DNA of 22,643 bases, taken from positions 1 to 22,643 of the IMG/VR virus record IMGVR_UViG_3300042402_003939. One strand, written 5' to 3'. The DNA is from a virus. Position numbers and translations under genes: made by a program. Numbering within the stretch: the first letter of the stretch is position 1; each line of letters starts with the position of its first letter. Shown piece by piece: positions 2,876 through 22,643 of this stretch. A model generated the notes under the pieces. The model had not been told where the DNA came from and did not search any database. It was given only the letters and a program-made list of their open reading frames with translations.

Positions 2876-2910
2876 TTTTATATCCAAAATTAGGTAGTTT
2901 AAATGTGCTT

Positions 2911-3010
2911 GCGAGCATGCTCGCTACGGTTGGCGTTCTAGGCATAACATGCTAGTAAAGGAGTCGCTACTCCAGGCGTCTTTGACCCGACGTCGATCAC
3001 TTGATCGGCG
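2911..3010. repeat. Three hairpins in the spacer between tctC copy 2 and dctP
   Basis: The 144-bp spacer holds no gene but three dyads: GCGAGCATGCTCGC (2911-2924, perfect 14-bp palindrome), GGAGT-CGCT-ACTCC (2960-2973), and a nearly perfect arm pair centred on CGATCA-CT-TGATCG (2994-3007, extendable to 2991-3010 with one G-T pair). On the minus strand the middle hairpin is followed by TTTAC, terminator-like but weak. A role in ending the tctC copy 2 transcript, RNA stability or recombination is possible. Confidence 0.6.
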
Positions 3011-3019
3011 CTGCCACTT

Positions 3020-3919: not shown

Positions 3920-5100
3920 TTGAGATTTCCTTGTATGATATCTGTGTTGACAAAGTCAGCGGGGCCCAGGTCATAGAATGTGTCCATGAACCCCACAAAG
4001 CCCACTGGCCGGCCCAACTCATATGTAAAAAATTTGGGATCAATTTTGTCTACCATGTGTTGCACCCCGGCCTTCCACACTTCGTAGAAACGTGTTTCTG
4101 TAAAGTTTTTAAAGAACCACCAGCCCATTTCGCTGTAGAAGTTGTTGGTGCTTTTCATGGTTTGCCATGTTGTGGGATCGTAGTCCTCATAGATCAGGGG
4201 ACGAGCAATTTGTTCGTAGGCATTGCGCTGTGCAGGACTGTGATTGGGCCAGCGCATCAAGAACTGCAAGTGCTTGGTGTGTGGCAATTGGAACCAGTTG
4301 CGGATTGTGTGAGCCTGCTTGATCACAATCTCAGGAATGTCTGGTTGCCAGTAAAAATATTCTGTGGTCAAGTTGGTGTAGGGACCAACAGTGGCCTGGC
4401 TGTGGTTGGCCTGAATGTCCAAGAAGTACAGGTACCAACGGCCATCCCGGATACAAATCTTGGGTTTGTCAATGCCATACAACACACAGATACTCTTGCC
4501 CGACTCTGCCAGTTGCTTGTGGCCGTCCATGCCCAAGGGATCATGTTTGAATGTGTGTTCAGGGTGCAGGTAATCTCTAGCACGTTCTACCCATGACTCG
4601 TCTCCCCGGTAGTCAAGAATGTTTTGACTGAAGTCGTGCATGGTAATTTTTGTGTTGGGATGACTCAACGCTAACTTTTGCAACACAGGCTTGGCTGCAA
4701 AGTGCCACTCGCTGAGAGTGTTTTCTGCTTTCATGTTCTTGGCATCGGGGCCAAGATTTTTATCGCCCTGTGCTGGATAGCGAAAAACCACTTCGTCAAT
4801 GTGAATACCGTTGTTGATAAAACTGTACAACACTGTGGTTGAATCTGAGCCGCCACTGAACTCCAGTCTGATGTAATCGTATCGATCTCGAAGTTGTTGG
4901 GCCCGCATGCGATACAGTTCACGCAAACTGGTCTGGGGCTCTACAGTAGTATCTATCTTGCTGTAGACATCTCTGTTGAAATTAAAATGAGGGAAATGCC
5001 CTGTGGTAGTTGCTTCCAACAGGGCCTGCGGTTTGCTATAAAAACGTTTGTCGCCTACAGTGTAAAAACCTAATCTTGGATTTTGTTCTAGTTCAATCAT
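3916..5100 (-). CDS. PP-loop ATP pyrophosphatase-like protein
   Basis: The 394-residue protein contains a clear PP-loop, EFSGGSDSTTVL (SGGSDS at 82-87), the ATP-binding signature of N-type ATP pyrophosphatases that adenylate a carboxylate or carbonyl before amidation or thiolation (asparagine synthetase, QueC, TilS, TtcA and relatives). The N-terminal 80 residues have no Cys2 glutaminase domain, so an amide donor would have to come from elsewhere. The long C-terminal part is rich in W, Y and F and matches nothing I recognise. It overlaps the upstream gene by 8 bp and tctC copy 2 by 4 bp, and so is probably co-translated with it. Length and context fit neither QueC (about 220-230 aa) nor TilS well. 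The ATPase class is confident; the reaction is unknown. Confidence 0.7.
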   Translation of the reverse strand: MIELEQNPRLGFYTVGDKRFYSKPQALLEATTTGHFPHFNFNRDVYSKIDTTVEPQTSLRELYRMRAQQLRDRYDYIRLEFSGGSDSTTVLYSFINNGIHIDEVVFRYPAQGDKNLGPDAKNMKAENTLSEWHFAAKPVLQKLALSHPNTKITMHDFSQNILDYRGDESWVERARDYLHPEHTFKHDPLGMDGHKQLAESGKSICVLYGIDKPKICIRDGRWYLYFLDIQANHSQATVGPYTNLTTEYFYWQPDIPEIVIKQAHTIRNWFQLPHTKHLQFLMRWPNHSPAQRNAYEQIARPLIYEDYDPTTWQTMKSTNNFYSEMGWWFFKNFTETRFYEVWKAGVQHMVDKIDPKFFTYELGRPVGFVGFMDTFYDLGPADFVNTDIIQGNLK

Positions 5101-5908: not shown

Positions 5909-5983
5909 TGGTCCGGGGTAGAGGAATCGAACCTCTATTAAGGGCTTAGAAGACCCGTGTATTATCCATTATACGAACCCCAG
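5909..5983 (-). tRNA. tRNA-Arg (anticodon TCT)
   Basis: Read on the minus strand, all arms can be drawn: acceptor CTGGGGT/ACCCCGG (two G-T or T-G pairs), D stem GTAT/ATAC, anticodon loop CTTCTAA with anticodon TCT, and T arm AGAGG-TTCGATT-CCTCT. The discriminator is A and CCA is encoded (5909-5911). It would read AGA (and AGG by wobble), codons rare in high-GC proteobacterial hosts. The CCA is followed immediately by the ribosome site of the next gene, so 3' cleavage must separate tRNA and mRNA. Confidence 0.93.
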
Positions 5984-5986
5984 AAT

Positions 5987-6063
5987 TGGTGCGCCCACTA
6001 GGACTTGAACCTAGGACCAATGGATTATGAGTCCACTGCTCTGACCAACTGAGCTATAGGCGC
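5987..6063 (-). tRNA. tRNA with CAT anticodon, probably tRNA-Ile2 (alternatively Met)
   Basis: Acceptor GCGCCTA/TGGGCGC, D arm with AGCTCAGTTGGTCAGAGCA, anticodon loop CTCATAA, T arm with GGTTCAAGTCC, discriminator A and encoded CCA (5987-5989). The body resembles bacterial tRNA-Ile2 (ACTCATAAT, TTGGTC, TTCAAGTCC), in which C34 becomes lysidine by host TilS so that AUA is read; elongator Met cannot be excluded. It lies 3 bp upstream of tRNA-Arg and its 5' end is only about 8 nt from the promoter -10 box. Confidence 0.9.
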
Positions 6064-9929: not shown

Positions 9930-11410
9930 TGTGCGGCATATTGTTTGTTGAAAGTCGGCATGCAATTCCTTTAGAAAAACATCTTGAAGCCCTGCAGATC
10001 TTGCAGAGTCGCGGCCCTGATTTCACACGCTACGAACATCGTGGCAATCAGTTTGTGGCACAAACAGTGTTGCATGTCACAGGCACAGCAGATTTCTACA
10101 ACAGAACTGGCAATGATTTCTTTGCCTACAACGGTGAAATATACGATTTCCTTTGGTATGGTAGATACAGCAACGACATTGAATTGGTGTATCACGCGGC
10201 GCATCGAGATCACAGACTGTTCCGTTACTTTGAAGGGCCTTGGGCATGGGTACACACTGACTTTGATCGAGTGATGTATGCTAGTGATCCACAAGGCGAG
10301 CATTATTTGTATCGTTATCAAGACGATGACATTGTGATTGTGTGCAGTGAGGTTGCACCCATACTGTGTTATATCAACACAGTCAAGGTGCCTGTGCTGT
10401 ATGTCAACAAGTCATGGACCTTGCAACAACAAACACCTTGGCAGGGCATTGAGCGTCTTGAACCTGGTAGGCTATACATCAATCATGAGGCCGACACAAG
10501 CCTAGATGACATTTGGTCTTGGATCAATCCAAGGCAAGATCTATCTTTTGAAGACGCCTATCGGGAATTTGATTCCATATGGACCAGAGCCATGCGCATC
10601 ATCAAACCTGAGTGTGCGACTGTTCTCAGTTATTCAGGAGGATTGGACAGCAGTATTATTTTGCCAGATCTCAATCCATCACAGTTGATTGTGACCAACA
10701 TGACTGGCAAAGATCCCATAGCCGACCGTGTTAAAGAATTCCTAACACCCAAACAACAACAGAGATTGACCCAAGTACACATAGACTATGAACAGTATGC
10801 ACAACATTATCTAGCTGTGATTGATCGTACTCGCATGCCGGTTCAAAGCTGGAGCTACGTGGGCAAATGGATAGTGGCACAGGCCTGCCAGGCACGAGTG
10901 TTGTTTTCGGGCCAAGCAGCCGATGAGTTGTTTGGCGGGTATGATGTGTACAGAAATATTTCCTATACCACCGAGCACTCGACCAGTCCCTACAGTTTGC
11001 ACATTGATTCTGACACCTGGCAAAAATGTCTAGCAGTTTACAACAACGATCCGCGACAGGCCACATTGTTGGCCGACTACTGGTGTCAAATAGTTGGGTC
11101 GGACGGTCCGGGTAGTGACCGTATTGGTGGTGCACACGGCATAGAAACACGCAACCCATTTCAACTCAAAAGTGTCATGACATTTGCTTTGAACTTGCCC
11201 TGGGAGTTCAAAGTCAGCAATGTTGGTAAACCCTTGATAAGAAAAAAATTCCTGGAGCGTTGGCCTGAAGATTTGGTATTGCCCAAGATGGGATTTGCCG
11301 GACATGCCAATGACTCGCTGCCTTGGTTGGGGGTAGAGATTGACTCAACCGGTGATCGGCATCGTGATTGGCAACAAATAGCACAAAAAACTTTTTACAA
11401 ACACGCTTGA
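9929..11410 (+). CDS. Glutamine-dependent asparagine synthetase-like amidotransferase
   Basis: A 493-residue protein starting MCGILF, which exposes the Cys2 nucleophile of class II glutaminases. The glutaminase half also has SRGPD (27-31) and NGEIYD (68-73). The synthetase half has the PP-loop YSGGLDSS (235-242) and FSGQAADELFGGYD (326-339), both diagnostic of AsnB. All expected catalytic blocks are present, so it should be active: ATP activates a carboxylate, which is then amidated with ammonia from glutamine. It may make asparagine, but relatives in surface-sugar clusters amidate uronic acids or peptides, and its glycosyltransferase-like neighbours favour such a role (inference). Its end overlaps the convergent minus gene by 16 bp. 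An earlier GTG/ATG frame start before 9929 is not needed. Confidence 0.88.
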   Translation: MCGILFVESRHAIPLEKHLEALQILQSRGPDFTRYEHRGNQFVAQTVLHVTGTADFYNRTGNDFFAYNGEIYDFLWYGRYSNDIELVYHAAHRDHRLFRYFEGPWAWVHTDFDRVMYASDPQGEHYLYRYQDDDIVIVCSEVAPILCYINTVKVPVLYVNKSWTLQQQTPWQGIERLEPGRLYINHEADTSLDDIWSWINPRQDLSFEDAYREFDSIWTRAMRIIKPECATVLSYSGGLDSSIILPDLNPSQLIVTNMTGKDPIADRVKEFLTPKQQQRLTQVHIDYEQYAQHYLAVIDRTRMPVQSWSYVGKWIVAQACQARVLFSGQAADELFGGYDVYRNISYTTEHSTSPYSLHIDSDTWQKCLAVYNNDPRQATLLADYWCQIVGSDGPGSDRIGGAHGIETRNPFQLKSVMTFALNLPWEFKVSNVGKPLIRKKFLERWPEDLVLPKMGFAGHANDSLPWLGVEIDSTGDRHRDWQQIAQKTFYKHA

Positions 11411-12099
11411 TATTGTGACCAATCAATCACTTGGTCAAACCATTCAGGGGTAAAATTAACTTCTGGATGTACGGCAAAATATTTGGTCATCATACCAACT
11501 GCTTGATCTTCACCGGGCGTGACTGATCGTGTGCGTGAACTGTTATACTCATACCAGTCTATGCCATAAGGTGCATCAGCATCGGTTAGTCTAAACAAGA
11601 ACTCTTGGCCAGATTCGGCGCCACACAATTCGGCAAATCGATCAAATGTGTCAACTGGTTCAAGATTACTATACAAGTGCGCACGGCAAGCATGAGTTGA
11701 AATAAACGCCGATACTGTGCGTATTTCGGGTATGCGTTCAAGGCAACGCAGTCTTGAATCACCATTGCCAGATTGAAAAGAACCATCTCCTAGATCTTGT
11801 ATTAACCAAGGTTTGACTATGCCCTGTCTGCGTATATCGTGTATCCACATGTTGAGTTTGACCAAATTGGCAATGTCATAAAAACATTTAGGATTGGTTA
11901 AAAATGCATGAGTGCCTTGTGTTTGTCGGCCATGATTGGCCCAAGCACACAGATCTGCTAGACGTTGGGCAGTTGATATATGATCAAATCTGGATTGTGG
12001 GTTCCAGAATAAACAATGCTGACCACCATGTGCGGCCTTAAATATTACATCGCTTGGACCAGGATACTGAACTTGTTCTAGGGGGTTATTCCAATACAT
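11395..12099 (-). CDS. Unknown protein in the plus-strand island (possibly ParB-like core)
   Basis: A 234-residue protein on the opposite strand, convergent with the synthetase and divergent from the next gene. The stretch LGDGSFQSGNGDSRLRCLE, followed by an acidic/aromatic C-terminal half (FLFRLTDADAPYGIDWYEY), faintly recalls the G-x-G/N-x-x-R-L-x-A core of ParB-like folds; this is weak. The ATG at 12097-12099 (MYWNNPL) leaves 11 bp to the divergent ATG; an alternative ATG at 12135 would overlap it. TATAAGTA lies just upstream and no ribosome site is visible, so a leaderless mRNA is possible. Function unknown. Confidence 0.65.
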   Translation of the reverse strand: MYWNNPLEQVQYPGPSDVIFKAAHGGQHCLFWNPQSRFDHISTAQRLADLCAWANHGRQTQGTHAFLTNPKCFYDIANLVKLNMWIHDIRRQGIVKPWLIQDLGDGSFQSGNGDSRLRCLERIPEIRTVSAFISTHACRAHLYSNLEPVDTFDRFAELCGAESGQEFLFRLTDADAPYGIDWYEYNSSRTRSVTPGEDQAVGMMTKYFAVHPEVNFTPEWFDQVIDWSQYQACL

Positions 12100-12110
12100 A
12101 CCATACTTAT

Positions 12111-13211
12111 ATGATAGAAATCTTTGGCCCAACATATCGCTACAACGGCGAGATCTTAACTGAACCTGAAATAATTTATGTTAACGATCATCACTATGAT
12201 GAAGAAAATCATTGTTTTCATGTGAAAACTTTGTTGGAAAACAGCACTTGCGACCCCCATAAACACTTGGTGGTATTTGATCATATCAACCATGATGACG
12301 AATTGGCTGAATACAATATCTTGTGTATGCCTATATTTTTAACTGCCGAAGCCAAAGAGTTTGAAACAAGAAACATACAACCCAATTGGAACAACAAACA
12401 TTATGCTTTCAATTTCATGATCAACAAACCCAGGCCCAACAGAGAGTTCTTGTTGGTGTTGATCAAACACTTTGGGCTAGACAATTACACCTATTCGTTG
12501 TGCTGGAAAAAAACCGATATCAATCGCGCCAAAATGTTGGCCAATACCAATTCAGATTGGTACAAACAAATTATAAACAACACCCAAGTTGACATTCCAG
12601 AAAAATCTTATGCGTTCGGACACGAAGTTTTTTTAGATCAAGGACTTAAATCCGGACAAATCAAGAATATGGAAAACTATGCTGGGCTGTTGAAAGATAC
12701 ACTGTTTGAGCCCAGTTGCGTGAGTCTAATCACTGAACCCAGTTTCTATGAACGTGAAACACTCAAAACAGAAAAGACCATTATGGCTATCTATGGCGGA
12801 ACTATACCGATTTGGGTAGGCGGTTGGGCCATACCTGAAAGTATGCGCCGCCTGGGGTTTGATGTGTTTGATGATATAGTAGATCATAGTTACGAACGCA
12901 TGGTAGATCCTTGGGATCGCGCCTACTATGCTGTAGAAAAAAATCTACATCTATTGCGTGACGTTGACCGCACTCGAAAGTTTATACAAAATAATCGGGC
13001 TAGATTTCAACATAATCTTGATCTAGTGCATCGCAATGTGTTCATGGAAGATCTTGTAGAAAAAATCAACCGATATGATGCAAAGACTCAACGTGTGCTC
13101 AGAGAAATTTCTCGAGGTTTCAGATTTAGATTGTTTAATGATTATAAATTGCTAGGTGATATATTAGGCAGGCCTGGTCCACCGATTGAAGAAACAAAGA
13201 GATGGGGTTAA
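12111..13211 (+). CDS. Putative glycosyltransferase with GT10-like C-terminal signature, copy 2
   Basis: A 366-residue protein. It shows FMINKPRPNREFLLVLI (around 102-118), a Y-S-x-CW strand after it, then SLITEPSFYERETLKTEK (205-222), IPIWVGGWAIPESMRRLGFD (232-251) and DDIVDHSYE (254-262). The TEK and LGF...DHSY blocks are the same as in the 8883-9929 protein, whose C-terminal RLGFDVxDDIVDHSY stretch is nearly identical, while the N-terminal halves differ; this pattern would fit the same reaction with different acceptors. I chose ATG 12111 over a TTG at 12054. It ends on TTAA, shared with the stop of the convergent gene. GT10-like is a pattern-based call. Confidence 0.55.
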   Translation: MIEIFGPTYRYNGEILTEPEIIYVNDHHYDEENHCFHVKTLLENSTCDPHKHLVVFDHINHDDELAEYNILCMPIFLTAEAKEFETRNIQPNWNNKHYAFNFMINKPRPNREFLLVLIKHFGLDNYTYSLCWKKTDINRAKMLANTNSDWYKQIINNTQVDIPEKSYAFGHEVFLDQGLKSGQIKNMENYAGLLKDTLFEPSCVSLITEPSFYERETLKTEKTIMAIYGGTIPIWVGGWAIPESMRRLGFDVFDDIVDHSYERMVDPWDRAYYAVEKNLHLLRDVDRTRKFIQNNRARFQHNLDLVHRNVFMEDLVEKINRYDAKTQRVLREISRGFRFRLFNDYKLLGDILGRPGPPIEETKRWG

Positions 13212-13567
13212 AGTCTCTCAAGATAGCGTAAAAACTTTTCCAAGTCGCCATACATGGCATACATGATGGCTTGTTGACTGCCGAATATAATTAGTTTGGG
13301 AGTTTTACCGACTTTGAGATAGTAGGGACAATCCAGTTTTCGATTCAAGGTCATCAGCAAACCGGGACTCAACATTTTTGTAAAATCAAACTGGTATTGT
13401 TCAATGGACAAAAATTTAAAAGTATCATACCCAGATATACTCAATCTCAATCCACCATCATTTCGCAAATCTTGCCACCACGACTTTAACGCCCATTCAA
13501 AACTAGGCCGATCATCTACTGGCAGTTGATTTAACAGTTGTTGGGTAAGTTGTTGTTTATCGGGCAT
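13208..13567 (-). CDS. Conserved phage protein (WWQDLRNDGGLRLS type)
   Basis: A 119-residue protein with SWWQDLRNDGGLRLSISGYD, then LNRKLDCPYYLKVGKTPKLI and a C-terminal QAIMYAMYGDLEKFL. I recall this order (WW.. R..GGLRL.. G; PYY; F..Q.AM....GDL..) from hypothetical proteins of T4-like phages. It could be a small DNA- or tail-associated protein; no catalytic residues are evident. The last four bases are shared with the convergent gene's stop (TTAA), and the start overlaps the upstream gene by 11 bp. Confidence 0.8.
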   Translation of the reverse strand: MPDKQQLTQQLLNQLPVDDRPSFEWALKSWWQDLRNDGGLRLSISGYDTFKFLSIEQYQFDFTKMLSPGLLMTLNRKLDCPYYLKVGKTPKLIIFGSQQAIMYAMYGDLEKFLRYLERL

Positions 13568-13853
13568 CGGGGTATACCTGCGCCCCCTGCGTCAACAGCA
13601 CCACTGTGAACTTGTCAGTCTTGAATTGTGTGTTGAGTTTTTTGGCCAAGTTTCTGGCATGCCCGGGATTGGAAAAACTTACTTTTTTGTATTTGGGTCC
13701 GGGGTATTGTGTGAGCATGTTTGATGTTTTCAAGTTAATGGGCTTGGTATCAAAAAACACAGCCCACACTCCCTCGGAGGCCAACACTTGCTCGGTCTTG
13801 TAAGTTGCTTTGTCAGTGTGCTCGATCAGCACCGTTGGCTTGGGTCTACTCAT
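13557..13853 (-). CDS. Conserved phage protein (SNPGHARNLAKKLN type)
   Basis: A 98-residue basic protein: PTVLIEHTD, a WAVFFDTKPINLKTSN strand pair, YPGPKYKKVSFSNPGHARNL and LNTQFKTDKFTVVLL. The same blocks occur in small uncharacterised phage proteins (from memory). A GGAG ribosome site lies 7 nt before the ATG. GATAAATA, one mismatch from the T4 late motif TATAAATA, lies about 17 nt upstream (13868-13875 region) and may be a promoter element. Confidence 0.8.
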   Translation of the reverse strand: MSRPKPTVLIEHTDKATYKTEQVLASEGVWAVFFDTKPINLKTSNMLTQYPGPKYKKVSFSNPGHARNLAKKLNTQFKTDKFTVVLLTQGAQVYPDAR

Positions 13854-13884
13854 CGTTATCTCCGTAGTTTATTTATCTCAAAAA

Positions 13885-14094
13885 CTACGTGCTTTTAAAA
13901 CCACCACCACTCATCTCCACTGTGACAGTTTCTTCGCGACTGGCCGAATTGCGCATACTTTCCAAGGTCAACAACAGTTTGGTAATGTCCCCGTGTAGGT
14001 CTTTGGCATCACGCAAGGTCATTGTGAGGTCACGTTGGCCACGACTTTCTGCAGCCTTGATTGTATCCACAAAACGATTGATATGTAGACTCAT
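13885..14094 (-). CDS. Small conserved phage protein (AESRGQRDLTMTLRDAKDLH type)
   Basis: A 69-residue helical protein with AAESRGQRDLTMTLRDAKDL and a second helix DITKLLLTLESMR. Short proteins of this layout are common in tailed phages; function unknown. It starts one base after the stop of the MazG-like gene, so the two are probably translated together. Confidence 0.8.
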   Translation of the reverse strand: MSLHINRFVDTIKAAESRGQRDLTMTLRDAKDLHGDITKLLLTLESMRNSASREETVTVEMSGGGFKST

Positions 14095-14095
14095 T

Positions 14096-14479
14096 TCAAG
14101 AAAATTTCTTCATGAAATGTGTTTTACTGAGATACTGCTCAAGTTCAGGTGGAATCCATCCCTGTGGCTTGAGTACTTTGCCATCTTCACGCTTTCGAAC
14201 CTTGCCGGTGTCTCGATCGATCTTGGCAAAGTTTGTGCGCATGACTTCCTTCCATGCACCTTCGCCGTCGGCACCCAGGCTGTGAATAGCACCAATTGTG
14301 ACCACCAAGATGTCAATCAGGGCATCTAAGTCGTCTTTGGCTGTGGTACTGGCCACAAGTTCATCAAATTCTTCTCTAATGAGGTTACAATACATTTGGT
14401 ATTGTTGTTCATTGAACTCGCCTGTGGTTTGATCACAGGCCTTCATGAATTTTTCTTGATCACGAAACGGATTGGTCAT
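14096..14479 (-). CDS. MazG-like nucleotide pyrophosphohydrolase
   Basis: A 127-residue protein of the all-alpha NTP pyrophosphohydrolase group. The metal-binding pattern is visible as IREEFDELVAST (EE-x-x-E type) and, 20 residues on, DALIDILVVTIGA (D-x3-D). The C-terminal GKVLKPQGWIPPELEQYL is typical of phage members. It would hydrolyse (d)NTPs or related nucleotides to monophosphates; phage MazG proteins have been proposed to adjust nucleotide or alarmone pools in infected cells. I chose ATG 14477-14479 (MTNPFRDQ), because the longer reading would overlap the upstream gene heavily and has low-complexity, non-homologous residues. Overlap with the upstream gene is 20 bp. Confidence 0.8.
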   Translation of the reverse strand: MTNPFRDQEKFMKACDQTTGEFNEQQYQMYCNLIREEFDELVASTTAKDDLDALIDILVVTIGAIHSLGADGEGAWKEVMRTNFAKIDRDTGKVRKREDGKVLKPQGWIPPELEQYLSKTHFMKKFS

Positions 14480-14912
14480 TGGCTTGCTCTTGAGTTTGAA
14501 AAGGACCTTGGTAAGCATAACGCTCCAAGGCAATAAGTTTGGGGTGTTGCACCACTCGCCACTTGCGATGTTGTTTGACCCGGTACCAGCCTGCTGCGAA
14601 CCAGGACTTAGATTTTTCTTCTTTGGTAAACAACGGTAATTTATGTTTGACATCCCACAGTGGATTGAACACCGCACCCATGACCTCGTGTCCATACACC
14701 ATGTTTGCCGGCTGTGGCGTTGCTGTTTCAGCTGGCTCGAATTGGATGTTTATGGCATCGCGAGCCATTTTAATGGTTTGATATTTTGCTACACTGTCTA
14801 GGATTTTTATTGTGCAGTTGCCGTTGTCAGCAACTTCAAGTTGGCCAATCTTGCGATTATCCTTCTTGAGTATCCAATACTGATTCTCTACTATGGGTTT
14901 GGCTAGTATCAT
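14460..14912 (-). CDS. Conserved phage protein (AAGWYRVK type), unknown function
   Basis: A 150-residue protein. The N-terminal half (QYWILKKDNRKIGQLEVADN) reads as an antiparallel beta domain, and the C-terminal half has HKLPLFTKEEKSKSWFAAGW followed by a WRVVQHPKLI strand and RYAYQGPF. I recall this combination from uncharacterised proteins of T4-like phages, often near nucleotide or recombination genes. An excellent ribosome site (AAGGAG, 6 nt before ATG) lies inside the end of the exonuclease gene, which it overlaps by 56 bp. Confidence 0.82.
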   Translation of the reverse strand: MILAKPIVENQYWILKKDNRKIGQLEVADNGNCTIKILDSVAKYQTIKMARDAINIQFEPAETATPQPANMVYGHEVMGAVFNPLWDVKHKLPLFTKEEKSKSWFAAGWYRVKQHRKWRVVQHPKLIALERYAYQGPFQTQEQANDQSVS

Positions 14913-15906
14913 CTAGTACTCCTTTATATGTTTCGTTGAGCCATCGACTGACTTGTTCGGCGTTCTCACTGAGTTTGGTCAACTCATACCGGCCACAGAA
15001 TCGCATGAAGTGAACTCCAACTTGTCCAACGTCGCGATGACTGACTTGCTCACGAATGCATTGGTCAACCACGGCCTTGACATCATCGGGTTGCGCAGTA
15101 AGGTCAACCAAGGTCCGATTGCGTTCGTAATCATCCTTGACTCGGTGTTCTGCACCATTGTGGTCAGTCCAACGTTGTAGCATCAGATTGTTCCAGTTGT
15201 AGCCTTTATTACCGCGATCCGCGTAGGCTTCACGGAGACCAACCTTATTCTTTGTTCCCTTCTCACGTACTCCCGGATATGCACTAAACACATTGTCGGA
15301 GGTGTCCCCACGCATGCACTTTTCAAATAGTAGCCACTGGGGGTCCGGAGTGATTTTTGGTTGTTTAGTTTTCTTATCAACGACAGGGTTGCCTTTGGCA
15401 TCAAATATACCTTCCAGGGTCAGTAGTTCGTCCGTGATACCGTTGTATTGTTGTACATTGGCAGCCAGTAACTGCACAAAGTCAGTGTCTGAGCTTACAA
15501 TTGTGTGTTCATCTTGGGGGTGTAGTGCAATCCAACGTGCAATGACGTCATCTGCTTCGGCGGTGGCGCAGCGGACGACGCTACAGTTTGTTCGAGTAGA
15601 CAAGTATTTAGTCAGCTCATCATAGGTTTCCCAAAACAGCTTGTCTTCTTCTGCTTCAGTTTCCGTCATTGCACCACGTGCCACAGCACGGTTTTTCTTG
15701 TAGGGTTCGTAGAAGTCCTTGCGCCAGCTACGCCCTTCTAGTGCAAAAATCACATGATCTGCTTGGAATCTACGAGCCACTTTGTTGGCGGCCATAATGG
15801 TCACATGCAGGGCAAAGCCCAATTTGGTCCATGTGTCACTGGCACGATGTGCACTGTGCCTGGCACGGAAAAACATGTTGGCAGTGTCAATCAGCAGATA
15901 TTTCAT
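14857..15906 (-). CDS. 5'-3' exonuclease, T4 RNase H-like (FEN/PIN family)
   Basis: A 349-residue protein with the acidic clusters of the FEN family: D7 in LLIDTAN, the arginine/lysine arch FALEGRSWRKDFYEPYKKNR, ATAEADDVIARW (E117, D119, D120), IVSSDTDF (D140, D142) and MRGDTSDN (D201, D204), followed by a helix-hairpin-helix-like YPGVREKGTKNKV. These coordinate the two metal ions that cut flaps and RNA primers from the 5' end. In T4 this removes lagging-strand primers. I chose ATG 15904-15906 (MKYLLIDTAN) over an in-frame TTG. It overlaps the upstream gene by 20 bp and the downstream gene by an unusual 56 bp. It is the best evidence for a phage replication module here. Confidence 0.9.
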   Translation of the reverse strand: MKYLLIDTANMFFRARHSAHRASDTWTKLGFALHVTIMAANKVARRFQADHVIFALEGRSWRKDFYEPYKKNRAVARGAMTETEAEEDKLFWETYDELTKYLSTRTNCSVVRCATAEADDVIARWIALHPQDEHTIVSSDTDFVQLLAANVQQYNGITDELLTLEGIFDAKGNPVVDKKTKQPKITPDPQWLLFEKCMRGDTSDNVFSAYPGVREKGTKNKVGLREAYADRGNKGYNWNNLMLQRWTDHNGAEHRVKDDYERNRTLVDLTAQPDDVKAVVDQCIREQVSHRDVGQVGVHFMRFCGRYELTKLSENAEQVSRWLNETYKGVLDDTSQTHSRESVLDTQEG

Positions 15907-16612
15907 TGGGTGCAATCAGGTTGTTATCGTTGATGTATTGTAACACATAGTTGGCCCAAAAGCAATGGGCATCAGCACCAAAATGATATGTTTTGGGATT
16001 TACGTATTCAAAACCGTTGTTTCTACACACAGCACTATAGGAATGATCTATGGAATAGGGTTGAATATATGAAACTCCCCAATCCTGATCTGCTGGCAGT
16101 TCACTGAATGTACTGTGTCCGTTAAAAAACAAGTGCGGTATTTGAAGATGCGTCAACTCTTGATGAAAAGCCCAAATTTGGTCATGTGCTCTACGAGTGG
16201 CCACTTTCCAATCAACATCAATCACATACTGCTTGTACCTATCACGCAGTTCGGGTGGAACTATATCCCATCCACTGGCGTTGACTTGATACCAGATGCC
16301 ATTGTGTAACCACTCCTCGCGTTCCCAAGTTGACCACTGTATGATCATAAAAGTGTTGGATAGTTTATCTGGATTGTTTTTGATCCAATCACGTGTGGTA
16401 CGAATCATGCGGTCATTGCTACTGGCTGACTCTGCAGCACAATACATTTCAATACCGAGATGCTGGGCCAATTTAGTGCACCAACTCACCGCTAGATTTG
16501 CAGGGTGCGGTCGACGATCTATGCCATTCTGACCATCATCTACAGCAAATGCTGCATCGACTGCGGCTTCTGCAGCCGCGGTATGGCTACAGCCGTTAAC
16601 GTATAAAATCAT
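15887..16612 (-). CDS. SGNH/GDSL-like hydrolase of phage type
   Basis: A 241-residue protein with block I as NGCSHTAAAE (residues 6-15, the G-x-S-H-T variant) and a C-terminal YHFGADAHCFWANYV (D-x-H type), which together place Ser9 and Asp/His of an SGNH catalytic triad. The middle SSNDRMIRTTRDWI and MIIQWSTWEREEW resemble uncharacterised proteins of T4-like phages. SGNH enzymes are esterases, lipases or O-acetylesterases acting on lipids or glycans; a role in removing or adding O-acyl groups on a surface glycan would fit the sugar genes nearby (inference). It has no signal peptide. The ends overlap both neighbours. Confidence 0.68.
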   Translation of the reverse strand: MILYVNGCSHTAAAEAAVDAAFAVDDGQNGIDRRPHPANLAVSWCTKLAQHLGIEMYCAAESASSNDRMIRTTRDWIKNNPDKLSNTFMIIQWSTWEREEWLHNGIWYQVNASGWDIVPPELRDRYKQYVIDVDWKVATRRAHDQIWAFHQELTHLQIPHLFFNGHSTFSELPADQDWGVSYIQPYSIDHSYSAVCRNNGFEYVNPKTYHFGADAHCFWANYVLQYINDNNLIAPNEISAD

Positions 16613-16848
16613 TCTTGATATGTGGGATTTGGAATTTCTAATTCAAACACATGGTATTCACTGAATACTGTGTCGGTGTTCTTGAGTAGTTCTATGGTGC
16701 GAAGTTGCTCGGCTTCTTGTCGTGTGCCGTAAAATCCTGAACCAAATGTGACGCTGCTACCACCGCCATACACATAGCTCATTTGAAGCCCGGTCTGTTT
16801 GATCACAGCATAGACCTTGAATGTGGGCAACGGTTTAAGTGGTTCCAT
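16609..16848 (-). CDS. Small conserved phage protein (ELEIPNP type)
   Basis: A 79-residue protein with a glycine-rich middle (YVYGGGSSVTFGSGFY), a helix TRQEAEQLRTIELLK and a C-terminal FELEIPNPTY. The last blocks are familiar from short phage hypotheticals. It overlaps the upstream gene by 14 bp and the downstream start by 4 bp (ATGA). Function unknown. Confidence 0.78.
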   Translation of the reverse strand: MEPLKPLPTFKVYAVIKQTGLQMSYVYGGGSSVTFGSGFYGTRQEAEQLRTIELLKNTDTVFSEYHVFELEIPNPTYQE

Positions 16849-17317
16849 CTTTCAACACCTTGAATGTTTCTGCTTCTACTACACGTTTGCGTAGGCTTGA
16901 ACTGGAGAAGCTGTGGTCACGTCGGTTGAATACATGTTGTATTCCTCGTGCTGCACCTTCACTGCGACCGGTGAAATTGGTGTCCTCGTACTCTACACCC
17001 AGAATTCGAACATCAATGGGAAGAATCAAGATCAAGTCAATGAGATCTTGCTCGGTGCTGTACACCACAACTTCATCAACGTAGCGACACGCCGCCAACT
17101 GTATCTGGCGTTCCACAATACTTTGTACAGGCCTATTCTTGGTATCTGGCCTGTCGATAGTGGGATCAGTCTGTAACCCACAGATGAGGTAATCACAGTG
17201 ATTCTTTGCTTCGGAGAGCATTGCAATATGGCCTGCATGTAGCATGTCAAAGGTCGAGAATGTGATGCCAATTTTTTTACCTTGATCTTTGAGATCTTTG
17301 ATGTGATTTAAAATCAT
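16835..17317 (-). CDS. Cytidylyltransferase-like protein (TagD/RfaE type)
   Basis: A 160-residue nucleotidyltransferase of the HIGH superfamily: ITFSTFDMLHAGH (residues 18-30, HxGH at 27-30) and, near the C terminus, RDHSFSSSSLRKRV (133-146) in place of the usual R-x3-S-T-S-x-x-R loop. Such enzymes transfer CMP (or AMP) from CTP to glycerol-3-phosphate, heptose-phosphate or similar alcohol phosphates, making activated donors for surface polymers. The substrate is not readable from the sequence. It lies in the nucleotide/nucleic acid block but might feed the sugar-transfer genes. Its neighbours overlap it on both sides (4 and 14 bp). Confidence 0.85.
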   Translation of the reverse strand: MILNHIKDLKDQGKKIGITFSTFDMLHAGHIAMLSEAKNHCDYLICGLQTDPTIDRPDTKNRPVQSIVERQIQLAACRYVDEVVVYSTEQDLIDLILILPIDVRILGVEYEDTNFTGRSEGAARGIQHVFNRRDHSFSSSSLRKRVVEAETFKVLKDGTT

Positions 17318-17721
17318 GATACTTCGCTCCTACCGTTGCCGATGTCTCTGGTGTTGACGTATTGACTACTGTATTTTTGTATAGCTTGTTCTTGTTCCCA
17401 AGTTTCCATGACAACATGTCTACAAATGTTTTGGAACCAGCGATCCACAATGTCTGCATCTGTGTCCGTGGGCTTCATCATGTAGCCGGCCTTGACCAGG
17501 CGCGCCACAAATATTTCATTCCAATCCAGTTCAAACGCACCTTGATGCAGATTGCTAGGATCAATATCCATCTTGACAATGCTCACATACGGTTCACCTT
17601 TTTCTGTAGCCAGTTCCTTGTCGGTCTTGGCAGGTTCTTTTGTGGCTTTTGGTGTGTCATCCACGGGTGTGGATATACGTTGTTTCTTTTTGGGCTTGTT
17701 AAACCAATCAAATATCGCCAT
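17314..17721 (-). CDS. Conserved phage protein (GAFELDWNEIFVARL type)
   Basis: A 135-residue protein. The first 45 residues are lysine/threonine-rich and probably disordered (MAIFDWFNKPKKKQR...). The rest is conserved-looking: PYVSIVKMDIDPSN, GAFELDWNEIFVARLVKAGY, DIVDRWFQNICRHVVMET. I recall the core from proteins of T4-like phages; its function is not known. I chose ATG 17719-17721, which overlaps the queE stop by one base (TAATG), over a TTG at 17733. Confidence 0.8.
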   Translation of the reverse strand: MAIFDWFNKPKKKQRISTPVDDTPKATKEPAKTDKELATEKGEPYVSIVKMDIDPSNLHQGAFELDWNEIFVARLVKAGYMMKPTDTDADIVDRWFQNICRHVVMETWEQEQAIQKYSSQYVNTRDIGNGRSEVS

Positions 17722-18572
17722 TAGGTTCCCCATTCGTTCTTGAAAAGTGGCACTTGAAGTCGATCACTGTACCGCCAGCCTTTTCGCATTGCCATGTCTG
17801 CCACTGCACGATTGTTAAGGGTATACACCCGCTCAACACCACCAACGGGCATAATATAAACAGGACCCGTAAACCCTGCCGCACGATATTCATCAACGGC
17901 TCTTTCAGCATCTTGCAAGTCCCCTTGTGTAGCCACAACAAATTTGAGATATGTGTAGCCATAGTCTTCATAGCTACAAACAATTTCGGGCCTGATGGCT
18001 TCTTCCCACTTCTCTCCTGAACATGGCAGTTTGGCACTGACACTGAATGTGAGTTCTCGCAACCAGTCTTTGTCATGATGATGTGCCCAACGATGCAGAT
18101 ACGATCCAAACTCTTTGCTGATTTCTTGAGTGCCGTTGGTTTCAAATGTGATTTCTTTGAGACTCGACATCTTGGGATGGTTCAATAGATCTGGATATGC
18201 ACGTTGCCAACCCAGCAGTGGTTCTCCGCCAGTGATCACAAGATGTTCGTCACGCCATTCCTTGTGCGGTAGCGTATCCACAATAGCATCGGCAATCGCA
18301 CCAGTATCAAGAAGGGGAGATAGATGACGAAAGCGAGGATCCCAACTAGCGTAACTGTCGCAACCTGTAGATACCAAAGGAAGCGATTTGTACTCGGTGT
18401 ACTGAGTCGGATCAATATTGTTTGCTTCTTCACTGAGTTCTCCTCGGGGCATGCCAAAACCGGCACATTTAAAGTTGCAGCCAAAAACACGTAAAAACAC
18501 CGAAGGAACGCCCATGTAACGACCTTCGCCTTGAATTGAATAAAATAGTTCTGCTACCTTGAGTTTAGACAT
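17721..18572 (-). CDS. queE: QueE-like radical SAM enzyme (7-carboxy-7-deazaguanine synthase)
   Basis: A 283-residue protein. The N-terminal VAELFYSIQGEGRYMGVPSV is the signature of QueE, which contracts carboxy-tetrahydropterin to 7-carboxy-7-deazaguanine for queuosine tRNA or deazaguanine DNA modification. FGCNFKCAGFGMPRGE gives Cys32 and Cys36, but the third position of the usual C-x3-C-x2-C is Phe39; a cysteine appears instead at 71 in STGCDSYASWD. TITGGEP-like ITGGEP (113-118) contacts SAM. I recall this arrangement from QueE relatives in T4-like cyanophages, so it may be a phage subfamily. QueC, QueD and DpdA are not in the window. It begins the 18572-13208 run with its own promoter and a good ribosome site (AAAGGAT). 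Confidence 0.85.
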   Translation of the reverse strand: MSKLKVAELFYSIQGEGRYMGVPSVFLRVFGCNFKCAGFGMPRGELSEEANNIDPTQYTEYKSLPLVSTGCDSYASWDPRFRHLSPLLDTGAIADAIVDTLPHKEWRDEHLVITGGEPLLGWQRAYPDLLNHPKMSSLKEITFETNGTQEISKEFGSYLHRWAHHHDKDWLRELTFSVSAKLPCSGEKWEEAIRPEIVCSYEDYGYTYLKFVVATQGDLQDAERAVDEYRAAGFTGPVYIMPVGGVERVYTLNNRAVADMAMRKGWRYSDRLQVPLFKNEWGT

Positions 18573-18599
18573 CTGTATCCTTTTGTTGTGTGCTCTGTT

Positions 18600-18628
18600 A
18601 TTGTACTAGAACTTTGCACACCGAGCAA
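18600..18628 (-). promoter_or_regulatory. Probable promoter of the queE operon
   Basis: Minus strand TTGCTC (18623-18628), 17-bp spacer, TACAAT (18600-18605), in the 60-bp gap after the epimerase gene. The predicted start leaves about a 20-nt leader holding the AAAGGAT ribosome site. The -10 is 5/6 to consensus; the -35 is weaker (3/6). Confidence 0.55.
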
Positions 18629-18632
18629 CCAC

Positions 18633-19526
18633 TCATTGGCCAATTGATTTTTGTACACCTAGCTCAAACGACATAGGGTCGTAGTCGGGCATGATGCTTT
18701 TGAGTTTGGCAATATTGGGTCTGCGATTAGCTGTGCTTCCGGGTTTGCCGGGTGTGGTTGCCCATGTGGGATTGCTGTGACCCAAGGCGGAGGCAATGAT
18801 TTGAGCTGCATCCATGATGGTGATCTCTCGGTCATTGCCAATGTTGATCAGTTCACGAATCTGTGTTTGGGCGCAGTGGATGCTGGCTCTCACAGCATCT
18901 TCCACGTGACAGAAACTTCTAGTTTCGTTGGCACCAAAACACTCAAATCTGCCTTCCTTGATCTTGGCAATTTGGTCAGCCAAGAAGTGTCCGGCCTTGC
19001 TGTTTTCACCATACACATTGAAATAGCGCAACATAACATAGGGCAGTTGGCTGTTGGCCAGATAATTTTCACTGCACACTTTGGCCAGTCTGTAGCTCCA
19101 ACGTGCATTGTGAATGTCTCGCACAGCAATATCTGCATGCTCGGGTACTGGGCTCACAGGATCATCACTCACAATTTCGCTGCTACTGGCGTACACAATT
19201 TTCTTGAGATTTTTAATATTGGCAGCGTACTCAAAAATATTAATGTCACACACAAAATTATTGCGCAACACTTGATTGGGGCGCTCGTAAAAGTTCTTGG
19301 TGCCATTGATAGCACCGTAGTGATAGATGTAATCAAAATCTTGCGGCAGGGTCCCAATCGCCCGAGGATCATTCAAATCAATTTCAAGGAAATGATCACA
19401 AGGTGGTACGGTTGTGCTGCGACTGTGATTGTCAACTGCCCAAACCTCGTTGGCAGCATCAGTTTTTAATTGTCTGCAAATTTCAGTGCCCAACAATCCA
19501 CTTGCACCTGTTACTAATATTTTCAT
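18633..19526 (-). CDS. NAD-dependent sugar epimerase/dehydratase (extended SDR)
   Basis: A 297-residue extended SDR: TGASGLLG (6-13, NAD-binding glycine motif), YASSSEIV (112-119, catalytic Ser), and WSYRLAKV (143-150, catalytic Y145 and K149). The later LRYFNVYGEN and RSFCHVEDAV are typical of UDP-glucose epimerases and dTDP-glucose 4,6-dehydratases acting on nucleotide sugars. The exact substrate cannot be told. It overlaps the dehydrogenase-like gene by 4 bp and is the last gene of the sugar cassette, closed by the queE promoter region. Confidence 0.85.
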   Translation of the reverse strand: MKILVTGASGLLGTEICRQLKTDAANEVWAVDNHSRSTTVPPCDHFLEIDLNDPRAIGTLPQDFDYIYHYGAINGTKNFYERPNQVLRNNFVCDINIFEYAANIKNLKKIVYASSSEIVSDDPVSPVPEHADIAVRDIHNARWSYRLAKVCSENYLANSQLPYVMLRYFNVYGENSKAGHFLADQIAKIKEGRFECFGANETRSFCHVEDAVRASIHCAQTQIRELINIGNDREITIMDAAQIIASALGHSNPTWATTPGKPGSTANRRPNIAKLKSIMPDYDPMSFELGVQKSIGQ

Positions 19527-20296
19527 TTGGTCACCTTGTTGTTGTCATCAATCACGCTTTGAATCAAAGTATAGGGCAGGTCAAGATTCTTGATCAAGTT
19601 GTTCCACGCACTGGTGTCTTTGGGCAAACAGTGTCCACCGTAGCCACGCATGTTCTCATTGGCCATCAAGTAGTGTGGATTGATACACTCTCTGCGAGTA
19701 ATTGCGTCATACACATTCTTGTAATCAGCACCTAATTTTTTACACACATCATAAGTGATATTGGCAAAGGTCACGCTCATGGCATGGTGCACGTTATTGA
19801 AATACTTGACAACTTCAGCTTCTGTGGGACTAACACGAGCCACAGTCTTGGGAAAATGCCCGTGTATCTTTTCAATCAAGTCAAAGTCTTGCTCACGATT
19901 GCTGCCAATGATCAACAAATCATGATTGTAAACAAAGTCTGCCAGTGCAGTCTTGGCTCGCAAAAACTCAGGCACGCTGCAAATTTTAAGATTGGGATAC
20001 TGCTCGCTCAATCTTTGGCTGGTTCCAGGAACCACAGTGCTTTTGATTGCTATCAGGCCCTGATACTGATGCTGACCCAGTTCCGCAACCACTCGTTCAA
20101 CAATGCTGGTATCACAGTCTCCATTGGCCGCTTGGTTCGTGGGCACACTGAGAAACACACACTCAGCCTCTAGCACATCAGCAAGTTTACTGCCCTCATA
20201 GGCAGGATCATAAAAGCACATATTGTGTCCAAGATACTCAAGACCTTCGTATACAGCCTTGCCCACTGTGCCTTTTCCAATTATTCCTATTTTCAT
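19523..20296 (-). CDS. Short UDP-glucose/GDP-mannose dehydrogenase-like protein
   Basis: A 257-residue protein with the family's landmarks: GKGTVGKA (NAD motif, 7-14), SVPTN (50-54), STVVPGTS (86-93), VPEFLRAKTAL (108-118), EVVKYFNN (161-168, catalytic Lys164) and RGYGGHCLPKDTSAW (catalytic Cys223). The family oxidises the C6 of UDP-glucose, UDP-sugars or GDP-mannose twice, giving a uronic acid. The C-terminal UDP-binding domain is absent: the usual 390-450 residues end here after the linking helix. The frame closes with a proper stop and overlaps both neighbours, so it looks like a natural short form rather than a frameshift. Activity without that domain is uncertain. Confidence 0.82.
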   Translation of the reverse strand: MKIGIIGKGTVGKAVYEGLEYLGHNMCFYDPAYEGSKLADVLEAECVFLSVPTNQAANGDCDTSIVERVVAELGQHQYQGLIAIKSTVVPGTSQRLSEQYPNLKICSVPEFLRAKTALADFVYNHDLLIIGSNREQDFDLIEKIHGHFPKTVARVSPTEAEVVKYFNNVHHAMSVTFANITYDVCKKLGADYKNVYDAITRRECINPHYLMANENMRGYGGHCLPKDTSAWNNLIKNLDLPYTLIQSVIDDNNKVTK

Positions 20297-20907
20297 TTTA
20301 CATCCTTAAAAGTCATGTCTACACACCTACTGGTTGAATTTGACTCAACCAGTTGAAAAATTTCTTCAGCAACTTGTTCAGGCTCAAGATAGTCCAACGT
20401 GGAATCAATTGCTTTGCCTGCTGTGGCCATCTTGGTGCGTGTTCTCACTGGATTCACCAAGTCAACTATGACAGCTGATCCCGCAAAGTAATCTCTAGCC
20501 GATTCCCACAAATTGTACAACGCTGCCTTGCTGGCGCTGTACAACGGATACAACCGGCGACCACCTGTGTAACTGCTGCTGCCAATCATGATAATTCTTG
20601 TGGGCTTGCTCAAGCCTTCTAGCGTCATATAATGACTCACGATTGACCAGTTACTGCCAAAGTTCACATTCATAGTGACATGATGTGTGTTGGTGTACCC
20701 ATTGACAAACACACCGGCACAATTAATTACAACATCAGCCTGCGCTTGATTCAGCAACTTGGCTGCATCCAAGTGACTTTGTTCGCTGTCAAAATTCAAA
20801 TGTTCGCTGTTCAAGGCAATAACATGATATCCTTTGTCAGCAAACAATTTTGCAGTAGCACCACCAATGCCACCTGATGCGCCAAAGATTACCACGGTTT
20901 TTTCCAT
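20293..20907 (-). CDS. Short-chain dehydrogenase/reductase
   Basis: A 204-residue classical SDR: GASGGIG (9-15), NCAG (62-65), catalytic Ser in MIGSSSYTG (107-115) and YSASK (Y123, K127). All three catalytic residues are present. In a sugar cassette it probably reduces or oxidises a nucleotide sugar or related compound. I chose the ATG at 20905-20907, which overlaps the cupin stop in TGATG, over a GTG directly before it. Length is a little short (240-260 is common). Confidence 0.85.
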   Translation of the reverse strand: MEKTVVIFGASGGIGGATAKLFADKGYHVIALNSEHLNFDSEQSHLDAAKLLNQAQADVVINCAGVFVNGYTNTHHVTMNVNFGSNWSIVSHYMTLEGLSKPTRIIMIGSSSYTGGRRLYPLYSASKAALYNLWESARDYFAGSAVIVDLVNPVRTRTKMATAGKAIDSTLDYLEPEQVAEEIFQLVESNSTSRCVDMTFKDVK

Positions 20908-21317
20908 CACGGTGCAGCTATATCTGCTACTCGATAAGTATCAGACTCATAATCCTCGCCACCACGCGGTCCTTCTGCAAATGCAAGAAATGTGCAGCCA
21001 TCAGAACCAGCTCTCATGGCATGAACTTCAAAGGGCTCACTTATGATCATGTCACCTGCAACAGCATTGAATACATTCACTAACTGTGAACCGTTTATAC
21101 TTTTGCTATAATAAGTCAGTGTGCCCGACATAACAAATGTATATTGCGTGGTGAATTTGTGATAGTGATTGCCGCGAACTGCTCCAGGCTGATTGGCAAT
21201 AACACAGCCATGATTCATGTTGGCTTTGTAGAATATATCAGTGATACTGCCGCGATCATCGCTGAATTTTCCCAGGCCAGGCTGGCCGTGTTCGCTGTAG
21301 ATGTTGTATGTTTTCAT
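20907..21317 (-). CDS. Sugar-type cupin (WxcM/FdtA or RmlC-like)
   Basis: A 136-residue cupin. DDRGSITDIF is followed by GCVIANQPGAVRGNHYHKFT, where the GNHYHK (49-54) histidines form cupin motif 1, and then YTFVMSGTLTYY. The later AGDMIISEPFEVHAM is motif 2. This order matches nucleotide-sugar ketoisomerases (FdtA type) and dTDP-4-dehydrorhamnose 3,5-epimerase relatives. It would act on a 4-keto sugar made by a dehydratase. It overlaps both neighbours, consistent with a coupled cassette. Which of the two reactions applies cannot be told. Confidence 0.72.
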   Translation of the reverse strand: MKTYNIYSEHGQPGLGKFSDDRGSITDIFYKANMNHGCVIANQPGAVRGNHYHKFTTQYTFVMSGTLTYYSKSINGSQLVNVFNAVAGDMIISEPFEVHAMRAGSDGCTFLAFAEGPRGGEDYESDTYRVADIAAP

Positions 21318-22540
21318 TGTGAAATAAACCTTGTGTTGGGGTTGATATTTAATATAGCACGCCGAAGACCCTCACCAATGTTCCAACTCAAAATCAAAGC
21401 ATACGGCCGTGGGTGGCGAGCAAACTCCTCGTCGGCCAGCACTGGAATTCTGGTCAATGGTGTGAATTTGCCTTGCTTGTGTTTGCTGGCATCAGTAATG
21501 CAATGAATCACTGTGCTGTCAAGCCCATGCCATTTCAGCCATGTATTGGCCTTGGCAGCGGCTCCAACACCAATTACTACTGCATTGGGATCTTGTTCCA
21601 ATAACTTGTAAAAATTGGCCAACCATGTAACCTTGGCAGTTTCAAATCGGCGTTGTAAATCTTGATAAAATTTGGGGTCAAACAAACCTATTTCGGTTTC
21701 CCGACTGATGGCCTGTTGAATTTTGTCAGGCATGCCGGCACCTGTGATGTGTCTAGCAAACACTCGCAAACTACCGCCGTGATAGTCAACAACATCAAAA
21801 TCAAATATTTCTAGTCCAGCTGCCTGCAACACATTGTGGGCCATTTTGATGGTGAAGTAGGTGGGATGTTCATGATACACCATGTCGGTGAATCTGCCGG
21901 ACTCAATCATGCTGAGCCAATAAGGAACTTCAAACACAAACTCACCAGCAGGGGCCAGCAGTTTTGCCACACTTTGAGCAAATGCCACAGGGTCGTTGGC
22001 ATGGTTGAACACATTGTTGGCAATCACAGTTCGGGCTGTTCCATGTTGCGATCGTATCAGTTCAGCGGTGCTGTTGTCAAACAAGGCATGCACAGTTTCA
22101 ACACCTCGAGCCCGGCTCAACGCACACATTTCTGCACTGCTGTCCACGGCCACCGCTTGATCAAACTGCGAAACAAGATACCCATCGTTGCTACCAATCT
22201 CAACCACAAGTCCCGAATGCCCACGATGTTTGATTGTTTGAACACATTCATCCCAGTGGTCTCTAGCAGTCTTGCTGTTGCTGGAAGTGTAACTGTAACT
22301 GTAGAGATTGTAGCGATCTTCGGCTGAACTTAGATAACCCAACTGTATACTACCAGTGTTGCTGTTCAAGAAAACCTGTAGTGGAAACACAGGTTCACTG
22401 AGATGAAGTTGATCGGCTCTAACAAAAGTGTCAGCATAGGCATGCTGACCAAAATCAAGTATTTTTACAACCGGCTGTTGGGAAATCACACACTTGGTAA
22501 CTGCATCACTCACAGTGATGTTACTGCTTGACAAGGTCAT
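21314..22540 (-). CDS. Sugar C-methyltransferase-like protein, with degenerate zinc domain
   Basis: A 408-residue three-part protein like the deoxysugar C-methyltransferases (TylC3/NovU type): an N-terminal zinc-binding-like domain (ILDFGQHAYADTFV, 27-40), a SAM-binding domain with VEIGSNDGYL (113-122), and a C-terminal domain with YHGGSLRVF. YHEHPTYF (222-229) matches the catalytic YHEH block. In the zinc domain only Cys17 of the usual four cysteines remains; the second pair position reads VFLNSNTGSIQL. I chose ATG 22538-22540 because GAGG lies 9 nt upstream; ATG 22549 and a TTG at 22573 are alternatives. It overlaps the upstream partial gene by about 20 bp and the cupin gene by 4 bp. Confidence 0.8.
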   Translation of the reverse strand: MTLSSSNITVSDAVTKCVISQQPVVKILDFGQHAYADTFVRADQLHLSEPVFPLQVFLNSNTGSIQLGYLSSAEDRYNLYSYSYTSSNSKTARDHWDECVQTIKHRGHSGLVVEIGSNDGYLVSQFDQAVAVDSSAEMCALSRARGVETVHALFDNSTAELIRSQHGTARTVIANNVFNHANDPVAFAQSVAKLLAPAGEFVFEVPYWLSMIESGRFTDMVYHEHPTYFTIKMAHNVLQAAGLEIFDFDVVDYHGGSLRVFARHITGAGMPDKIQQAISRETEIGLFDPKFYQDLQRRFETAKVTWLANFYKLLEQDPNAVVIGVGAAAKANTWLKWHGLDSTVIHCITDASKHKQGKFTPLTRIPVLADEEFARHPRPYALILSWNIGEGLRRAILNINPNTRFISQ

Positions 22541-22643
22541 TCCTGACATCCTCACTTCTTCGATCCGGCTCAACAGATACTACTTGACCTTGAGTATCCA
22601 GCCTCATTACAAACTGGCTCATCTGCCGATTGACATCTAGTTC
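22521..22643 (-). CDS. C-terminal end of an unrecognised gene (cut by window edge)
   Basis: From the right edge, an open frame of 40 codons runs leftward to TAA at 22521-22523, overlapping the methyltransferase start by about 20 bp, a spacing seen elsewhere in this genome. The residues visible (NRQMSQFVMRLDTQGQ, ending RNDLVKQ) are not recognisable. Position suggests it is the preceding gene of the sugar cassette. Confidence 0.55.
   Translation of the reverse strand, partial: ELDVNRQMSQFVMRLDTQGQVVSVEPDRRSEDVRNDLVKQ

Follow-up and report, generated by a model that had tools for sequence, protein, structure and literature searches.

Do the overlapping sugar genes at one end of a virus contig form a single pathway, and what would that pathway make? 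The stretch in question (here, the window) is the complete IMG/VR virus record IMGVR_UViG_3300042402_003939, 22,643 bases long. Its rightmost genes, all on the minus strand, encode a methyltransferase (MT), a cupin, a short-chain dehydrogenase/reductase (SDR), a dehydrogenase-like protein (UGD) and an epimerase-like protein (EPI), preceded by a glycosyltransferase (GT) that is cut by the contig end. Here, we argue with moderate confidence that this phage-borne unit builds a branched (C-methylated) nucleotide sugar and transfers it. The observations behind this reading are the family-level identity of the genes, their conserved order and the pattern in which they are swapped.

Genes and boundaries of the cassette

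The MT gene (21314-22549, minus; 411 aa from ATG, with a longer open reading frame opening at TTG 22573) encodes a sugar C-methyltransferase of the TylC3/TcaB9 type (PF08484, 102.4 bits, cut-off 23.5; PF13489, 46 bits, cut-off 27). Among PDB profiles, it matched 4rv9, a D-mycarose 3-C-methyltransferase, almost from end to end (E 9e-69), and likewise 3ndi. The motif Y-H-E-H, which we take to be the catalytic motif of this C-methyltransferase family, was invariant in 23/23 aligned rows and lined up with the same motif in 4rv9. MT probably acts on a 4-keto nucleotide sugar. The cupin (20907-21317, minus; 136 aa) is like the C-terminal epimerase domain of CapF (PF14667, Polysacc_synt_C, 31.2 bits, cut-off 28.7) and is proposed to be a 4-keto-sugar epimerase; its PDB matches were weak and mixed, with oxalate decarboxylases on top and Cap5F at E 0.006, and both its R-G/A-NHYH motif and its metal-binding histidines (H51, H53 and H99) were invariant. 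SDR (20293-20907, minus; 204 aa, alternative start GTG at 20910) is a classical short-chain reductase (adh_short, 60.8 bits) and a candidate 4-ketoreductase.

UGD (19523-20296, minus; 257 aa) is a short UDP-glucose/GDP-mannose dehydrogenase-like protein that matched PF03721 and PF00984, with no third domain listed, and resembles the PDB UGDH and GMDH enzymes by sequence and fold. It retains the motif GGHCLPKD, and E110, K164, N168, C223, K226 and D227 were invariant in 16 rows. The short form was also seen in 11 of the 17 genome-collection relatives that were measured (48 were fetched), which do not exceed 296 aa when counted from the first Met. Short UGDs were common in genomes of Patescibacteria (L063 to L110), often with an EPI-like and sometimes with an MT-like gene nearby; the closest genome-collection short UGD (48%) came from L063, a record titled 'viral-cat'.

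EPI (18633-19526, minus; 297 aa) is an extended SDR by its PDB profile matches, has a UDP-glucuronate-decarboxylase-like signature and is the proposed maker of the 4-keto sugar. Glucuronate decarboxylases share a T/S-S-E triad, YxxxK, an Asn and an Arg aligned with ArnA R619 (PMC10338323). In EPI, S116-E117, Y145, K149, N170 and R203, aligned to UXS1, were invariant in 20 rows, with S-S-E as the triad and T-S-E in three loci (L045, L046 and L047); EPI carries the decarboxylase residue set of the UXS/ArnA/EvdS6 type.

The preliminary description placed a five-gene cassette at 18633-22643. All five genes lie there, but the right edge (22521-22643, minus) belongs to the sixth gene, GT, as its last 40 codons. 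The whole gene (296 aa) was found at L002:1552-2442, on a separate contig whose cassette proteins are 100% identical to those of the window and which reaches 2.4 kb further right. GT has no Pfam family, and a sequence search of solved structures gave no relative. Its AlphaFold model (pLDDT 92.9) resembled the GT-A glycosyltransferases TarP, RmlT and TarS (Foldseek probability 1.00, TM-scores of about 0.5); judged by this model, the sixth gene is a GT-A-fold glycosyltransferase.

As first described, the five genes are joined by overlapping stops and starts of 1 to 4 nt: from MT to EPI, the junctions are -4, -1 (TGATG; -4 with the GTG start), -4 and -4 nt, and the 3' end of GT overlaps MT by 29 nt. 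Such overlaps were not accepted as proof of shared function, because they are common among neighbouring genes of the window: with the chosen start sites, they occur in 8 of 11 further minus-strand pairs at 13208-19526, a set that includes EPI/queE (one overlap, of 236 nt, reflects a doubtful start).

Behind EPI, after a gap of 60 nt, lies a queE-like radical S-adenosylmethionine (SAM) gene (17721-18572, minus; phrog_2076, 176 bits), a neighbour outside the sugar unit. The preliminary description had given queE its own promoter. A consensus promoter scan listed none in the gap and found 9 overall against 10.0 expected by chance; because it did no better than chance, conservation was used instead. 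The hexamer TA[TC]AAT occurred in the gap in 19/19 related loci with queE directly after EPI (the pattern was picked after 12 of the 19 examples had been seen, and the loci are related), so the claim holds by conservation of the -10 element. The putative promoter (18600-18628, minus; TTGCTC, 17 nt, TACAAT) closes the cassette unit and supports an end at EPI.

Conserved order and exchange of supply and branching enzymes

Related loci were collected with a UGD scan (59 viral loci) and an MT-alignment scan (the best 80 of 271 relatives). Loci with an identical cassette protein were dropped before counting, leaving 73 of 137 loci, window counted in. Two further scans, one with an E1alpha protein and one with a variant cupin, led to a second non-redundant set of 88 out of 164 loci. 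A search of 25 related viral records showed Gp23, the T4-type major capsid gene, on 6, among them records as long as 317 and 347 kb, and the cassette is therefore placed in large T4-like phages of lakes; no capsid gene was recognised among the window's own genes.

In the 73-locus set, all five genes were contiguous in 48 loci; a search for the same genes in order had been suggested earlier. SDR was shifted to just upstream of GT in a further 8, and the remaining 17 included real variants as well as loci cut by contig ends (L009, L010, L013 and L050; on the upstream side, L034 and L141). MT and cupin overlapped by exactly 4 nt in 66/66 measured junctions and UGD and EPI by 1 to 14 nt in 66/66, a conservation beyond chance; the spacing of GT and MT was -20 to +1 nt in 53/60. 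The tight coupling had earlier led to the proposal of a common product for enzymes made in equal amounts. The common product is backed by the conserved order and by coupled swaps, but the overlaps themselves prove little; conserved order, not overlap, supports joint function.

The swaps concern the enzymes that would supply the keto sugar. In the 88-locus set, 70 loci have MT and cupin; 59 of these carry UGD+EPI and the other 11 a GDP-mannose 4,6-dehydratase (GMD), with no locus having both supplies or lacking both. The stand-in for UGD+EPI in variant loci is a gene of 323 to 327 aa; for two GMD replacements, the best NCBIfam match was TIGR01472 (366 and 373 bits, below the cut-off of 415). 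The two supplies look interchangeable. UGD+EPI-type enzymes and GMD can both yield a 4-keto nucleotide sugar, the substrate needed by C-methyltransferases of the MT family. Decarboxylases and 4,6-dehydratases are likewise named as alternative keto-sugar sources for acetyl branching in the EvdS6 paper (PMC10338323).

Trees were built from loci with MT reading frames of at least 370 aa; for cupin and GT, a locus also had to have exactly one of the two supply types. On the MT tree, supply type must change at least 3 times, strong branches forcing each of these changes, and a single origin was seen in 0/200 bootstrap trees; across this tree and its bootstraps, 3 to 4 changes were needed. The GT tree had 4 supply changes, at least 2 of them forced. 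The cupin tree had one (SH-aLRT 79), and cupin type therefore travels with supply, as an epimerase adapted to a single substrate would.

The branching enzyme may be exchanged too. Genes for a thiamine-enzyme pair (E1alpha/E1beta) adjoin SDR-UGD-EPI in 7 loci, in 6 of which MT and cupin were not found; the seventh, L117, has both. In L203, another of the seven and cut by the contig end, E1beta alone was scored. In three further, distant E1 loci, a 4,6-dehydratase-family gene replaces UGD+EPI (about 142 with the GMD model; 244 to 254 bits with Pfam GDP_Man_Dehyd), and two E1 loci have neither. The pyruvate-dehydrogenase-like AviB1/AviB2 put two-carbon branches on sugars in the avilamycin and paulomycin clusters (PMC4425429).

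A 642-kb deposited phage genome, LR756502, encodes a single 867-aa protein (L217:5600-8203) in which Pfam recognises an epimerase domain and a C-methyltransferase domain; a cupin stretch lies between the two, as seen by tblastn and in the translation. This fusion offers independent support for joint action of epimerase, cupin and MT.

Additional genes accompanied the cassette in single loci or small groups. Aminotransferase-like genes of the DegT/DnrJ/EryC1 family, about 200 aa against a 360-position profile, occur at L213:8411-9004, between cupin and GMD, and at L004:604-1227. L058 has a second copy of GT (2686-4251), with a weak FkbM-methyltransferase match ahead of GT in the same protein, and a second, longer UGD (11065-12312, 415 aa) behind queE. 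Downstream of EPI in L015, L047, L048, L049 and L051 lies a gene of 364 to 369 aa (cluster 39), by eye a putative SAM synthetase.

Proposed pathway, related systems and alternatives

Conserved order and coupled swaps are the reason for reading the enzymes as acting on one product. In the pathway we propose, whose reactions, step order, substrate, product and target are all predicted from sequence, UGD would take a nucleotide hexose of the host (UDP-glucose, or possibly GDP-mannose) and oxidise it at C6, and EPI would oxidise C4 and remove C6 as CO2, leaving an NDP-4-keto-pentose. MT would then add the methyl carbon of SAM beside the ketone, the cupin would epimerise a carbon beside the ketone and SDR would reduce the ketone, before the GT-A enzyme moves the branched sugar, most likely onto the virion or a glycan of the host surface. 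In relatives, GMD would take the place of the first two steps, or a thiamine-type two-carbon branching pair would be used. The product of the window phage is probably a C-methylated 4-keto-pentose derivative.

The enzyme families are known and the combination is new for phage. A phage pathway with this gene set was not found in open-licence literature or in 50,697 deposited phage records, which leaves the earlier statement that none has been described uncontradicted. In those records (tblastn), 9 matched MT, 1 the cupin, 2 GT and 40 UGD; LR756502 was the only one to match both MT and cupin (27-29% identity). In the mycarose/tetronitrose branch of dTDP-sugar synthesis, the C-methyltransferase family is the same and is likewise joined by a cupin of the epimerase type, a ketoreductase and a transferase; in these pathways, TylC3/TcaB9 are teamed with an epimerase, a 4-ketoreductase and a transferase. 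Unlike that branch, the cassette is phage-carried, shows no 2,3-dehydratase or thymidylyltransferase, is supplied by UGD+EPI or GMD, and has lost the zinc finger of MT. Everninomicin and avilamycin synthesis (EvdS6, AviE2, AviB1/AviB2) is alike in its decarboxylase-type supply of a 4-keto-pentose, EvdS6 releasing UDP-4-keto-xylose as the proposed precursor of a thiamine-branched sugar (PMC10338323), and the E1alpha/E1beta variant loci mirror AviB1/AviB2; in contrast, the branching enzyme of the window is a one-carbon methyltransferase, and no orthosomycin genes were seen. A cupin epimerase paired with an SDR 4-ketoreductase on a 4-keto nucleotide sugar is found in CapF (Cap5F; PMC5393024) and, on GDP-4-keto sugars, in Campylobacter DdahB/C and MlghB/C (PMC7949155), whereas the cassette would have the two functions in separate overlapping genes and adds a C-methyltransferase. 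Phage-carried nucleotide-sugar genes, gmd included, are known as auxiliary genes (galE, rmlB, rmlD, gmd and rmd; PMC12911398). The cassette differs from these as a conserved six-gene unit with carbon branching, and the word methyltransferase is absent from the main text of that paper.

Several findings weigh against a C-methylating pathway of this kind. The zinc-finger CxxC of MT is lost (the second Cys is absent in the aligned rows shown), and the N-terminal zinc-binding domain PF08421 scored 28.7 bits, below its cut-off of 31.3. UGD stops after the central domain and lacks the C-terminal nucleotide-binding domain that known UGDHs have; residues 218-225, in the region of the catalytic Cys motif, are a weak part of its structure model. 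Extension to the right, as advised in the preliminary description, yielded a transferase (GT) but no sugar nucleotidyltransferase adjoining the cassette in the loci read. GT is absent in 10 of the 70 MT+cupin loci, some of them contig-cut. An approximately unbiased (AU) test did not reject one GMD-linked MT clade (p 0.097 with 11 rows, 0.099 with 7). The E1 case rests on 7 loci: five other E1 loci lack the short UGD and have much lower E1 scores, and on the UGD tree the E1 rows cluster, with one change and no repeated exchange of MT and E1 seen there. Finally, every locus came from queries with cassette proteins or their replacements, and of the 271 MT relatives only the best 80 entered the collection.

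The PDB scores of EPI, 98 bits for the UXS1 decarboxylase against 98 to 104 bits for 4-epimerases, count against the proposed pathway as well and open the way to a plainer account, in which EPI is a uronate or pentose 4-epimerase, MT, cupin and SDR act on another, host-derived 4-keto-6-deoxy sugar, and order and overlap are gene packing around an ordinary host-type lipopolysaccharide (LPS) sugar. Such an account would fit the overlaps common across the window, locus L056, which has GT-UGD-EPI without MT, cupin and SDR, and the single nucleotide-sugar genes known in phages (PMC12911398). We nonetheless think it rather unlikely: UGD+EPI and GMD replace each other beside MT and cupin in 70/70 loci, which is expected only with shared downstream steps, and cupin type tracks supply. 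It is still harder to see the cassette as a bacterial LPS locus, with the contig mis-binned. In many Patescibacteria genomes, short UGD and EPI-like genes similar to those of the cassette do lie near one another, and the window also has genes for transporter solute-binding proteins; however, Gp23 occurs on 6/25 related records of up to 347 kb, the same exonuclease, MazG and queE genes flank the cassette across viral contigs, and the best UGD relative in the genome collection is 48% identical. In that collection (a scan with two peptide patterns), the base-for-base match to a host LPS locus that would have marked the contig as bacterial was not found, and we give this explanation hardly any credence.

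If the cassette works as proposed, a surface glycan or the virion is a likelier target than DNA, because GT is of the polysaccharide type and a KdsA gene was found in L183. That gene (L183:10499-11329), for a KdsA-type 3-deoxy-8-phosphooctulonate synthase, scored above the curated cut-off and adjoins a GMD-variant cassette on a phage contig. GT could instead add the branched sugar to a modified base in phage DNA, much as RB69-type phages attach arabinose; the base might be a 7-deazaguanine made through the flanking folE, queD and queE. Among 40 loci whose flanks measure 4.5 kb or more on each side of the cassette, 25 had folE, queD and queE, 6 had queD and queE and 1 had queD alone, and pentose modifications of phage DNA have been described. 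Against this, 8 of the 40 had none of the three genes, the thymidylate synthase/hydroxymethylase family (PF00303) was found in 0/25 viral records, which are perhaps incomplete, and the TGT family (PF01702) in 0/23, where a divergent DpdA could escape and records may again be incomplete. QueC was above cut-off in 3/23 viral records, as partial matches, and the fold of GT is nearest to teichoic-acid and polysaccharide enzymes. A DNA target is accordingly improbable in our estimation, and we would put slightly less trust again in its specific form, in which a branched C-methyl pentose is put on 7-deazaguanine via folE/queD/queE as a hypermodification with exchangeable sugars.

Neighbouring genes and implications

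Elsewhere in the window, a cytidylyltransferase-like gene (16835-17317, minus; nearest PHROG, heptose kinase/adenylyltransferase) lies downstream of queE and recurs downstream in many related loci. A DNA-level search of deposited phages gave only a short match, at 66-74% identity, to this gene in 3 Vibrio phages. Genes for three transporter solute-binding proteins, two TctC and one DctP (934-1827, 1916-2887 and 3020-3919, minus), are unusual phage cargo. Adjacent tRNA-Arg (tct) and tRNA-Met (cat) genes lie at 5909-6063 (minus), and a metallophosphoesterase fragment (1-246, minus; phrog_1649) is LpxH-like by eye.

Should the proposed pathway be correct, phages would themselves make branched sugars, whose chemistry is known chiefly from O-antigens and antibiotics, and would exchange supply and branching enzymes among themselves like cartridges. 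The short UGD, which Patescibacteria share, would then be a nucleotide-sugar oxidase without the usual nucleotide-binding domain. For the phages, the cassette would be a way to diversify a surface sugar, with a bearing on superinfection exclusion, receptor masking and virion glycosylation.

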